64,000 nucleotides of DNA, taken from an uncultured Dehalococcoidia bacterium (GTDB taxonomy: Bacteria > Chloroflexota > Dehalococcoidia > Lucifugimonadales > Australimonadaceae). A model generated the notes under the pieces. That model searched no databases. It was given only the letters and a program-made list of their open reading frames with translations, and was not told the origin of the DNA. The position numbers were made by a program, and so were the translations under genes. The DNA is taken from contig OY282355.1 of the NCBI GenBank assembly GCA_958295525.1, forward strand, positions 719,504-783,503, read 5' to 3'. Of the stretch, positions 28,985 to 33,481 are shown one piece after another. Every line of letters begins with the position of its first letter. Position 1 is the first letter of the stretch.

Positions 28985-29749
28985 GTGGCGATACCGGACT
29001 ACGAAACGCTAATGCGGCCTGTGCTTGGCTTGGTTCTGTACGAACCGAAGCATTACAGGGACTGCGCAGCCGAGCTGGTCATAACCTTCAACCTCACGCA
29101 GGACGAAGTTGAGGAGTTGCTGCCCAGGGCAAGACGAACGGTGTTCGTAGACCGCGTGTACTGGGCCACCGCCTACCTGAAGGCTGCTGGGGCCATTGAG
29201 CGCCCTAAGAGGGGATTCGTCCTTGCAACCGACAGAGGGCGATATCTCCACCGAGATAACCCTGAACGCATAGACACGCAAGCGCTCATGCAATTCCCTG
29301 AGTTCGCCGAGTTCAGGCAACGCAGCTCCTCGGCGCGTGGAAGAGGGTTGCCCAGAAGAAACACGGGGACTTACGGCGAGGACATCAATGAGATGGCCAG
29401 CCAAACCCAGGAATCCATTCCTAGCGGACGGATGCCCACCCCCCGCATCCCCATCCCGCGCGACGAGATCGCGGCGTTCTGCCGGAAGTGGCGGATCATC
29501 GAACTCGCGCTGTTCGGCTCCGTGTTGCGCGACGACTTCACCCCGGAGAGCGACGTTGACGCGCTCGCGCGCTTCAGCCCAGACGCGGAGCATACGCTCT
29601 ACGACCTCTACGATATGGAGCAGGAGTTGGCCGCCGCGCTTGGCCGGAAGACGCACATCGGCTCTTGGGAGGCCGTCGAGCGCAGCAAGAATCCGTACCG
29701 CCGCAAGGACGTGCTGGGGTCGGCGCAGGTGATCTATGACGCAGCGTAG
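28985..29749 (+). CDS. Mrr N-terminal domain fused to MNT-type nucleotidyltransferase
   Basis: A 254-residue fusion. Residues 1-100 resemble the winged-helix N-terminal domain of Mrr restriction enzymes (PDYETLMRPVLGLV, AGAIERPKRGFVLATDRGR). Residues about 150-254 are an MNT (minimal nucleotidyltransferase) domain with ALFGSVLRDDFTPESDVD, the GSx10DxD pattern. The third catalytic Asp, normally in a vDLV strand, appears as His in RKTHIG. AGGAG stands five bases before the GTG start. The domain could also be translated alone from an internal ATG at 29391. It overlaps the HepT gene by 14 bases. MNT antitoxins AMPylate HepT; the Mrr part may add DNA binding. Confidence 0.75.
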   Translation: MAIPDYETLMRPVLGLVLYEPKHYRDCAAELVITFNLTQDEVEELLPRARRTVFVDRVYWATAYLKAAGAIERPKRGFVLATDRGRYLHRDNPERIDTQALMQFPEFAEFRQRSSSARGRGLPRRNTGTYGEDINEMASQTQESIPSGRMPTPRIPIPRDEIAAFCRKWRIIELALFGSVLRDDFTPESDVDALARFSPDAEHTLYDLYDMEQELAAALGRKTHIGSWEAVERSKNPYRRKDVLGSAQVIYDAA

Positions 29750-30098
29750 CGTCCAGCCTCGCGGCGACCGAACGCGCTTGGCGGATATGCGGGCGTATGC
29801 CCAGCAAGCCTGCGCGCACGTCGAGGGCATGACCTTCTCGGAGTTCGCCCAAAGCGACCTTCACCAACACGCAACCTTCTACGCGCTCGAGGTCGTCGGA
29901 GAGGCGGCTTCTCACATAGGGCAAGACGTTCAGTTGGCCAACCCTAACATTCCGTGGCGTCAAATCGTGAGCATGCGAAACCGCCTCATCCATGCGTACT
30001 ACGACATAGACGTCCGCATCGTTTGGCGGACGATCAAACAAGACCTGCCCCCGCTGATCGCGCGGCTGGAGCCGATGCTGCCGGAGCAGGGCGCGTAA
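29736..30098 (+). CDS. HepT-like HEPN RNase toxin (DUF86)
   Basis: A 120-residue HEPN protein with the motif MRNRLIHAYYDID, that is R-x4-H followed by the Tyr that MntA-type antitoxins AMPylate in characterised HepT/MntA pairs. ALEVVGEAASHIGQDV is the family helix before it. It follows and overlaps the nucleotidyltransferase fusion, the standard order for this toxin-antitoxin type. All expected residues are present, so it should be active. Confidence 0.9.
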   Translation: MTQRSVQPRGDRTRLADMRAYAQQACAHVEGMTFSEFAQSDLHQHATFYALEVVGEAASHIGQDVQLANPNIPWRQIVSMRNRLIHAYYDIDVRIVWRTIKQDLPPLIARLEPMLPEQGA

Positions 30099-31090: not shown

Positions 31091-31612
31091 TCACCAAGCC
31101 CCGGGCGGCAGTGTTTCCGCTGGGTCGGGAGAACGCGAGTCTGCATCCCATCGCGCAACCGCGACGCGCTTTGGCTTCTGCCGCTTGGGCCAATCGTACT
31201 CTAATACGTCGTGCCGGGCATAGGCGTTGACGAGGCTCTTGAGAGCGGAGCCGACCCCGGCGGGGGAGAGCAGCCACGCATCGGAGGGCAAGGCTACTCG
31301 GCAATACCCCAGCAGTTGCGAGAGGTGCGCCAACGACAGCGTCGCCAATTTGCACTCTACGAAGTGCAGCCGCGTCTCCTTCCCGTCCACGACGAACCCC
31401 GTCACGTCGACCTGTATCTCGAAGGTCTGCCAGGATGAGTCCGCGAATCCTGTGTGCAAAGAGTGGCGGGATATGTACTCGTTCAACCGAACGTTGTGCG
31501 TATCGGCGACCTGCACGGATGCGGATGGGAACCTGATCGTTAGTCGTTCACGGAGCCAAGCGGCGACGTCAGAGTACATCGCCGTCTCTGATGAGTAAGG
31601 ACGCTTACTCAT
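31091..31612 (-). CDS. PD-(D/E)XK nuclease-like protein of a restriction-modification operon
   Basis: A 173-residue protein. The segment FEIQVDVTGFVVDG, then LHFVECKLATLSL, gives the D...(D/E)-x-K pattern (VD and ECK) of PD-(D/E)XK nucleases, followed by the usual helix SLAHLSQLLGYCRVA. It is the third gene of an operon with a DNA methyltransferase and a LAGLIDADG-like protein. Its ATG and the previous stop share ATGAGTAA, so the two are tightly coupled. It is a good candidate for the cleaving subunit. GC content is lower than in neighbours outside the operon. Confidence 0.7.
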   Translation of the reverse strand: MSKRPYSSETAMYSDVAAWLRERLTIRFPSASVQVADTHNVRLNEYISRHSLHTGFADSSWQTFEIQVDVTGFVVDGKETRLHFVECKLATLSLAHLSQLLGYCRVALPSDAWLLSPAGVGSALKSLVNAYARHDVLEYDWPKRQKPKRVAVARWDADSRSPDPAETLPPGAW

Positions 31613-32540
31613 CGCCGCCCTCGTTTTCTTCGGGAATCAGCGCGGCCTGTTGCCTCGATTTGGGCCGCTTCGGACAGCCTAGCGCCCGGCATATCTGCCA
31701 GTAGGCGTTGAAATGCTTGCCGAGTATCGGATCCGGCAAGCGTTCGCTGTCCTTTTCTCTTTTGTCCTTTTTCTTCCTTAGGCCAACTTTCCTAGCGCCC
31801 GGGCAGCCGCTTTGCTTGTGAAGGCCGCTCGTCTCGTTGAACTCAGCGAGTTCCTTGAGCGCCTTCTGTTTGTTCTCGAAATGAAATCCGACCGCAAGGA
31901 AGTCGTCGGCGTAGATATTGATCTGATGCTCTCTCCAGTTCCTTCCCATATTGGGGTGCCCCCAAGTGATTACAGGCACGTCTACGCCCAAGTCGGTCTG
32001 CAGAAGTTGGCAGATTTTGACGGGAGTCTTCCAAGTTCCCTTTGCGTTGAGCACGTCCAACCGAACCCGATGCCGGCCAATTTGGTCACGGTTGGCGGGG
32101 CGGATGTTGCCTGCGACGTCCGCGAACCCCCTGATGAATTCCCTTTTGATCTCGAGCGGAGTGTCCGCGTGCGTTATGACGTCGGGGATTTGGAACGACC
32201 GGAACTCCCGCGCTTCGCCGAAGAGCATCTCCAAGTCTCTGAAGGCGATCGTGCGCCTCGTAAGCGTCAGCACTAAGTCTATATGCCTAGCGCTGTCCAC
32301 GATGCGGTCGTCCGCGCCGGTGAGTTCGCGCAGCCGCTCAGCGACCTTGTGCAGACTCAGCTGAATGCCGTGCTCGGCTTCCGTTTCGCTCACAGGCTCC
32401 AGCCCCTGTGCGCCGAGCAACGCTTTGCGGAAGCGGACGATCACACGGTAGTCGGCGCCTGTTGTCACCATCTCCCCCCGAGCCACGAGCATGCCCAGCA
32501 AGTAGCCGACGTCGGGGTCAATGTAGTCGAGGTCAACCAT
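31605..32540 (-). CDS. LAGLIDADG-like protein of a restriction-modification operon
   Basis: A 311-residue protein with two LAGLIDADG-like helices: GYLLGMLVARGE (residues 12-23) and EFIRGFADVAGNIR (about 138-151). In functional homing endonucleases the eighth position of this motif is acidic; here it is Arg and Ala, so metal-dependent cleavage by this protein is doubtful and a DNA-binding role is more likely. The C-terminal third is basic (KVGLRKKKDKREKD) with a small Cys-poor tail. It is coupled by TGATG to the methyltransferase and by eight bases to the PD-(D/E)XK gene. Confidence 0.72.
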   Translation of the reverse strand: MVDLDYIDPDVGYLLGMLVARGEMVTTGADYRVIVRFRKALLGAQGLEPVSETEAEHGIQLSLHKVAERLRELTGADDRIVDSARHIDLVLTLTRRTIAFRDLEMLFGEAREFRSFQIPDVITHADTPLEIKREFIRGFADVAGNIRPANRDQIGRHRVRLDVLNAKGTWKTPVKICQLLQTDLGVDVPVITWGHPNMGRNWREHQINIYADDFLAVGFHFENKQKALKELAEFNETSGLHKQSGCPGARKVGLRKKKDKREKDSERLPDPILGKHFNAYWQICRALGCPKRPKSRQQAALIPEENEGGDE

Positions 32541-33481
32541 CAGCGCGCCTCTTCCGGTTTTTGGAATATCAGCAGGAACTCATGCGCCTTGTTGATGCGG
32601 AATTTGGACGGATAGCCCAATGGCCGCATATTGTTGTATTCGTGCCGCCGATCCCAAATAATGACATCGTCGTAGACGAACCCCAACCCTTCCATCATCA
32701 CGGCGACATCCGAATGAAAGGGGTAAAACCGGCTCTTCTTTCGAATGTCCATCACAACGACGACGCAGTACGCCCCGGGTTTCATCGCTACGAACGCCTG
32801 ATGGAATATCTTGCCGAGCGCATTGATAAACGCGCCGTATTCAGGAATTTTCCCCAAGTCCTTCTCTTCTTCGCCGTAGTGCCGAATCTCTTTGCCGTCC
32901 GCCGACCGCTCTTGCAAGAGGATGTCCCAGTACGGCGGAGAGGTCAGCACGAAATCCACAGAGGAAGGGGGAACGTGCAGCAGGAGCAAGTTGGCGTCGT
33001 CAGTGTGGATAATGCGCCTGCCCTCGACTGCCGCCGCCGGCGCTCCTGAGGCGCCTGCCGTCGCTGCGGGATTGGAATCCGCCAGTCCGCCGAAGGGCGT
33101 CTCCCTGCTCCGCGCCTTCGCGGCGAACTCCTCGTTGAGTTCTATCCCGACGCCGGTCTTGCCCAGCATCTCGGCGGCGATGGGCGTCGTGCCGATGCCT
33201 GCGAACGGATCAAGCACGACGGACTCGCCGTCAGGCGTGAAACACCGAATGAGCCTCGTAGCCAGAGCCAGAGGGAACATCGCAGGGTGCCCCAGCCTCT
33301 TCTCCTCCGGGGTTTTCTTGATATCGCTCCAAATGCTGATCGAGAAGCGTTCCCACTCGCGCCCGTCGAGGCCGTTGGCGCGCTTGGCCGGGCGCGCGAG
33401 GCTCCTCTGGGCGGGGCGTTTTTCCTCGAAGCCCTCGCCATCGATCGTCAATTGCGCCGATTGAGTCATCATGCCGAGCAT
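32540..33481 (-). CDS. DNA methyltransferase (N4-cytosine or N6-adenine)
   Basis: A 313-residue methyltransferase with motif I VVLDPFAGIGTTPIAAE around residue 90 and motif IV LTSPPYWDIL around residue 185. The SPPY form is commonest in N4-cytosine enzymes. The order I then IV with a short region between resembles the small MTases of type II systems. The C-terminal KINKAHEFLLIFQK-like segment (FRINKAHEFLLIFQKP) is typical. First gene in an operon with the LAGLIDADG-like and PD-(D/E)XK proteins. Several Met codons (33481, 33472, 33469) could be the start. Confidence 0.9.
   Translation of the reverse strand: MLGMMTQSAQLTIDGEGFEEKRPAQRSLARPAKRANGLDGREWERFSISIWSDIKKTPEEKRLGHPAMFPLALATRLIRCFTPDGESVVLDPFAGIGTTPIAAEMLGKTGVGIELNEEFAAKARSRETPFGGLADSNPAATAGASGAPAAAVEGRRIIHTDDANLLLLHVPPSSVDFVLTSPPYWDILLQERSADGKEIRHYGEEEKDLGKIPEYGAFINALGKIFHQAFVAMKPGAYCVVVVMDIRKKSRFYPFHSDVAVMMEGLGFVYDDVIIWDRRHEYNNMRPLGYPSKFRINKAHEFLLIFQKPEEAR

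Follow-up and report, generated by a model that had tools for sequence, protein, structure and literature searches.

A three-gene restriction-modification-like operon in which a LAGLIDADG protein without canonical catalytic acids is a likely DNA-reading partner of a small PD-(D/E)XK nuclease

The window, meaning the whole stretch of 64,000 nucleotides that was analysed, contains an operon of three genes encoding a DNA methyltransferase, a LAGLIDADG protein and a PD-(D/E)XK nuclease (Table 1). The first-pass annotation had described a methyltransferase, a two-motif LAGLIDADG-like protein and a PD-(D/E)XK protein overlapping head to tail, and the ORFs and coordinates agree with this description. 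The methyltransferase and LAGLIDADG ORFs overlap by 1 nt (TGATG) and the LAGLIDADG and nuclease ORFs by 8 nt; the three genes are translationally coupled. The operon has a GC content of 0.597, compared with 0.687 and 0.714 for its neighbours. Four genomes of the same genus show synteny for the SDR and asparaginase-like genes on either side, which are separated there by 1.5-1.9 kb of other sequence; the LAGLIDADG gene was found in none of five same-genus genomes. The operon was probably acquired horizontally. Close to it, at 28985-29749 and 29736-30098 of the window, one ORF with Mrr N-terminal and MNT-type nucleotidyltransferase domains lies beside a HepT ribonuclease gene, and the two make up a toxin-antitoxin pair. 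At the equivalent of region 30900-33613 in L110, L117 and L124-L127, the flanks are kept and other sequence replaces the operon; an amidohydrolase-like ORF occupies its place in at least two same-genus genomes.

Table 1. Features of the operon, in window coordinates.
Feature	Position	Strand	Details and basis
Three-gene operon	33481-31091	-	methyltransferase, then LAGLIDADG protein, then PD-(D/E)XK nuclease, head to tail
DNA methyltransferase, 313 aa, first gene	32540..33481	-	PF01555, E 6.5e-31; PADLOC MTase_II
Methyltransferase motif I, DPFAGIGTT	33185..33211	-	translation
Methyltransferase motif IV, TSPPYW	32927..32944	-	translation
LAGLIDADG-fold protein (putative DNA reader), 311 aa	31605..32540	-	AlphaFold2 and structure matches
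LAGLIDADG motif 1, YLLGMLVARGEM	32469..32504	-	position 8 = Arg21, codon 32478-32480
LAGLIDADG motif 2, EFIRGFADVAGNI	32103..32141	-	position 8 = Ala143, codon 32112-32114
Second-half sheet	31917..32102	-	invariant R147, N150, R158, H195, N197, E204, H205, Q206 (64-sequence alignment)
Small PD-(D/E)XK nuclease (putative cutter), 173 aa	31091..31612	-	AlphaFold2 and structure matches
Nuclease active-site Asp69	31406..31408	-	D in 68/68 homologs
Nuclease active-site E86-C-K88 (E-x-K)	31349..31357	-	E and K in 68/68 homologs
QLLGY, Q99-xxx-Y103 motif	31304..31318	-	Q and Y in 68/68 homologs

The LAGLIDADG protein gave no significant match in Pfam, NCBIfam, PADLOC, PHROGs or the PDB sequences, and weak matches to Hom_end or LAGLIDADG_3 were obtained for a few family members only. 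A Pfam search with family members at full length revealed no convincing domain in any of them. Because of the lack of a significant family match, the LAGLIDADG call could be made only from the motifs, and it is the AlphaFold2 model that settles the assignment. The model, based on an alignment of 64 homologs (pLDDT 90.2, pTM 0.89), revealed a repeated helix-strand-strand-helix-strand-strand-helix arrangement. All of the 50 best matches listed by VIA are LAGLIDADG structures, and Foldseek likewise returned LAGLIDADG proteins throughout. Structural comparison by VIA-align 2 yielded Z values of 14.9 for the TliVMA intein, the best match, 14.3 for PI-SceI, 13.6 for I-DmoI and 11-13.5 for WhiA. The predicted structure confirms that the product of the second gene is a LAGLIDADG-fold protein, and the motif is present in it twice.

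In homing endonucleases of this fold, position 8 of the motif holds an acidic residue that binds metal, and this residue is missing from every aligned LAGLIDADG homolog. In the window protein the two positions are occupied by Arg21 and Ala143, a replacement already pointed out in the first-pass annotation and borne out by the translation. Position 8 of motif 1 is Asn in 33, Arg in 23, Lys in five and His in two of the 63 homologs, and that of motif 2 is Thr in 44, Ala in 18 and Gly in two of 64, with an acidic residue in none of them. As position 8 is non-acidic in all homologs, the loss is old and fixed, and the window protein is not a degenerate copy.

The nuclease also lacks a significant family match in Pfam, PADLOC, NCBIfam and PHROGs. 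Its AlphaFold2 model (pLDDT 96.1, pTM 0.91) is best matched by the cutting domain of PaqCI (Foldseek E 6.6e-4, VIA Z 8.4), with further matches to FokI, MspJI, BamHI, EcoRI and the small subunit of R.BspD6I (2p14, Z 6.9). Most of the structures matched are restriction enzymes or related nucleases, at moderate Z values. The ECK triplet that had been noticed at first reading is indeed retained, at residues 86-88, and a QxxxY motif, typical of RecB/Cas4-type PD-(D/E)XK nucleases, follows it. Despite the moderate Z values, the invariance of Asp69, Glu86-x-Lys88 and Gln99-xxx-Tyr103 makes the assignment firm: the third protein belongs to the PD-(D/E)XK superfamily and has a complete predicted active site.

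The window methyltransferase is a single amino-methyltransferase whose motifs run in the order X-I-IV, and a target-recognition domain is not obvious in it. The sequence TSPPYW is present in all 35 beta-type (N4/N6) partners examined, and SPPY or TSPPYW is the usual signature of N4-cytosine enzymes.

Scanning of genome contigs with a five-sequence alignment yielded 146 related loci. The set analysed here comprises the best 80 of these together with viral, plasmid and phage loci, of which the viral contigs added three. A scan of viral contigs with a single sequence gave no matches, and weak single-sequence matches in other Chloroflexota genomes disappeared under profile search. This gene order recurs in about 90 loci, which excludes a chance arrangement. 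The LAGLIDADG-nuclease family is common to bacteria, archaea, phages and plasmids. Among the best 80 of the 146 loci and the additions, the carriers include Chloroflexota, Poribacteria, Acidobacteriota, Armatimonadota, Bacteroidota, Ignavibacteriota, Bacillota, Spirochaetota, Patescibacteria and several archaeal lineages, and individual placements may be wrong, because many carriers are metagenome bins. A second Chloroflexota genome has the same three genes, with identities of 56% for the methyltransferase, 48% for the LAGLIDADG protein and 42% for the nuclease, and remote relatives occur on two Lactiplantibacillus plasmids and in two gut phages. In these phages (L018 and L019, Ca. Heliusvirales) the complete system lies near the genome end, and in L019 an excisionase adjoins it.

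The LAGLIDADG ORF is present in 92 loci, counting a few places more than once. The nuclease ORF adjoins it in all but L070, and in 72 of 82 loci it starts before the LAGLIDADG ORF has ended. A methyltransferase lies upstream of the pair in every locus uncut by a contig end, and nearly all complete loci keep the order methyltransferase(s), LAGLIDADG protein, nuclease, the few exceptions being truncated or decayed. Loci with a single methyltransferase (class A below) consist of the three genes with unrelated genes on both sides, and no translocating ATPase of the kind found in Types I and III was seen as a common element at the loci inspected. The LAGLIDADG profile detected two of 400 Chloroflexota genomes, and the nuclease profile detected the same two and one contig-end fragment; in plasmids and phages the nuclease matched only system loci already found. 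Apart from that fragment, these 400 genomes, plasmids and phages thus contain no homolog of the third gene outside the LAGLIDADG context, in keeping with the association drawn in the first-pass annotation. Over 52 dereplicated loci, the distances of the LAGLIDADG protein and the nuclease have a correlation of 0.93, against a permutation maximum of 0.20, and they correlate within each methyltransferase class as well; since the permutation ignores shared ancestry, this correlation shows co-inheritance and not contact. Possibly decayed copies are seen at L033:5938-6444, where the nuclease gene is split, at L050:4998-5729, where the LAGLIDADG ORF is shortened, and from L070:5870 onward, where the nuclease gene is missing.

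Five combinations of methyltransferases, designated A to E, were found beside the LAGLIDADG-nuclease pair. Class A (about 20 loci and the window) has a single N4/N6 enzyme, class B a fusion of D12 adenine and N4/N6 enzymes, class C (38 loci) EcoRI-type adenine and m5C enzymes, fused or separate, class D an Eco57I-type adenine enzyme with an N4/N6 enzyme, and class E (L099) an Eco57I-type with an m5C enzyme. An adenine-type enzyme is paired with a cytosine-type enzyme in every class but A, as expected for an asymmetric site, and Type IIT systems with asymmetric sites have two methyltransferases, separate or fused (PMC4081073). Eight class changes were counted on the tree, two of them from weak labels: L032, labelled D through a weak match of its single methyltransferase, actually belongs to class A, and L047 is cut off by a contig end. 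The methyltransferase class switches while the LAGLIDADG-nuclease pair stays constant, which argues that the pair is the restriction enzyme.

The two halves of the LAGLIDADG protein differ in variability, with a mean strand entropy of 2.08 bits in the first half and 0.97 bits in the second, which is nearly fixed. The conservation of H195-N197 (HPN) and E204-Q206 (EHQ) in the second half is partly ascertained, because these residues were part of the search patterns, and the bias-free invariant residues are only R147, N150 and R158. The invariance of the second half could reflect a common target core, a new active site or an interface with the nuclease. Residues of the first half differ by methyltransferase class, but the classes are clades, so that specificity is not proven by this difference. 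Tracking of the methyltransferase class by the first-half sheet beyond ancestry was unconvincing, as L057 and L071 group with their sub-clade in every part of the protein. In one sub-clade, residue 194 is Ala in L059, L064, L074, L089, L096, L100 and L101, which have N4/N6-type cytosine methyltransferases, and Gly in L057, L071 and L099, which have m5C methyltransferases; only two switches are involved, and Gly is also the residue of class A.

Based on these observations, we propose that the LAGLIDADG protein and the nuclease are likely to form a split Type II restriction enzyme, IIS- or IIT-like, made up of a catalytically dead LAGLIDADG reader and a PD-(D/E)XK cutter. The first-pass annotation had already suggested this division of labour, and neither finding that it named as contradicting evidence was obtained, whether acidic residues at position 8 of homologs or third-gene homologs confined to other contexts. 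A cognate methyltransferase encoded with the nuclease, which marks a Type II system, is present in all loci uncut by contig ends. Carriage by plasmids and phages, together with the low GC of the window operon and its absence from the equivalent place in sister genomes, is in line with such a DNA-cutting defence system. The LAGLIDADG protein would bind a short, probably asymmetric target through its two pseudo-symmetric halves. Since both metal-binding acids are lost, the canonical site plays no part in cutting; the LAGLIDADG protein would recruit the small PD-(D/E)XK protein into a complex, and this partner would cut with its complete active site. The methyltransferase, one gene here and usually two activities elsewhere, would shield the host copies of the target. 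A point against the proposal is that class A, the class of the window, has a single methyltransferase, which could protect only one strand of an asymmetric target; a symmetric site or a flexible enzyme would remove this difficulty. We also consider, tentatively and with more doubt than confidence, a modular form of the domesticated LAGLIDADG reader, in which the invariant second half reads a common core, the variable first half reads a class-specific part and the separate cutter is guided to the site. Engineered meganuclease-nuclease fusions would have a natural equivalent in such a modular reader.

The invariant polar cluster of the second half could instead be a new active site, and this would count against the split-enzyme reading. 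The LAGLIDADG protein would then read the target and nick one strand through the new site, with the PD-(D/E)XK protein nicking the other, as a Type IIT enzyme with two sites. In BsrDI, BtsI and BspD6I the large subunit both reads and cuts one strand (PMC4081073), and the nuclease model resembles 2p14, the small subunit of R.BspD6I (Z 6.9), which is consistent with such an arrangement. The residues R147, N150, R158, H195, N197, E204, H205 and Q206 are invariant in the 64 sequences, but this cluster was partly selected by the search patterns, and both canonical acids are absent from every homolog. We know of no LAGLIDADG enzyme that cuts with residues like these, and regard the two-site enzyme as unlikely.

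Two further roles for the LAGLIDADG protein were weighed. As a specificity subunit common to methyltransferase and nuclease, like HsdS in Type I, it would account for a window-type methyltransferase of about 255-317 aa, with the order X-I-IV and no obvious recognition domain, that stays with the pair in class A. Elsewhere, however, the pair accompanies EcoRI-type and m5C methyltransferases of full size, which normally recognise DNA unaided, making a shared subunit quite improbable. The protein could also be a transcription factor for the operon, leaving the PD-(D/E)XK protein as the sole restriction enzyme. WhiA, a transcriptional regulator, is a LAGLIDADG protein whose catalytic residues have been lost (PMC3781837), and its chains align with the model at Z 11-13.5. 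However, DNA binding by WhiA uses an added helix-turn-helix domain. In addition, a nuclease of 165-173 aa is small for a stand-alone sequence-specific enzyme, and the tight coupling and co-inheritance of the two proteins indicate a partner, so that we give a regulatory role very little credence.

In the split-enzyme reading, the system resembles R.BspD6I, BsrDI and BtsI of Type IIT, which have a large reading subunit, a small PD-(D/E)XK subunit whose fold (2p14) matches the nuclease model, and operon-encoded methyltransferases, frequently two of them, either separate or fused (PMC4081073). Their large subunit cuts one strand, whereas here it would be replaced by a LAGLIDADG fold without canonical acids, and a sequence relation between these enzymes and the window system is undetectable. 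Similar to I-DmoI, PI-SceI and the TliVMA intein, the protein has a two-fold pseudo-symmetric LAGLIDADG fold (best Z 14.9), but unlike homing endonucleases it has lost the position-8 acids in all homologs and is fixed beside a methyltransferase and a nuclease, outside any intron or intein. WhiA is likewise a domesticated LAGLIDADG fold with lost catalytic residues (PMC3781837), but is a helix-turn-helix transcription factor without a methyltransferase or nuclease partner. The Type IIS enzymes PaqCI and FokI also separate reading from cutting modules, and the nuclease model matches the PaqCI cutting domain, but here the modules are separate proteins and the reader has a LAGLIDADG fold. Two candidate relatives were rejected: LAGLIDADG motifs formerly claimed for GmrSD were not found in a later analysis (PMC4619093), and the fused-methyltransferase system MhoVII has a different nuclease (PMC12898733).

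A review of Type II enzymes groups them by PD-(D/E)XK, HNH, GIY-YIG and phospholipase D sites, and a LAGLIDADG reader is absent from it (PMC4081073). No restriction enzyme with such a reader was found in our search of mainly open-access literature, and the LAGLIDADG-nuclease system is undescribed in Pfam, NCBIfam, PADLOC and PHROGs. We therefore regard the system as previously unannotated, its novelty being provisional. As the two restriction proteins are unnamed in the libraries searched, the loci are likely to have been counted as lone methyltransferases. If the proposal is correct, these loci would provide natural readers with a separate cutter and target-revealing methyltransferases, and LAGLIDADG specificity could be read from methylomes.

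Small neighbour families were also observed at the related loci. A protein family of about 115 aa, without a Pfam match, is a repeated neighbour of the system in classes B, C, D and E (L042:4603-4974, L064:4039-4383, L074:4651-4989, L089:4660-5001, L099:4117-4491 and seven more loci), often between the methyltransferase and LAGLIDADG genes, and is possibly an accessory or immunity protein. Another accessory family, about 155 aa long and with a RAEDI motif, flanks the system at L059:4497-4982, L064:4513-4989, L099:4520-4984, L100:5199-5645 and L101:6374-6820, and in L057, L071 and L079 the same place is taken by a related protein of 358 aa that has a NOV_C domain.
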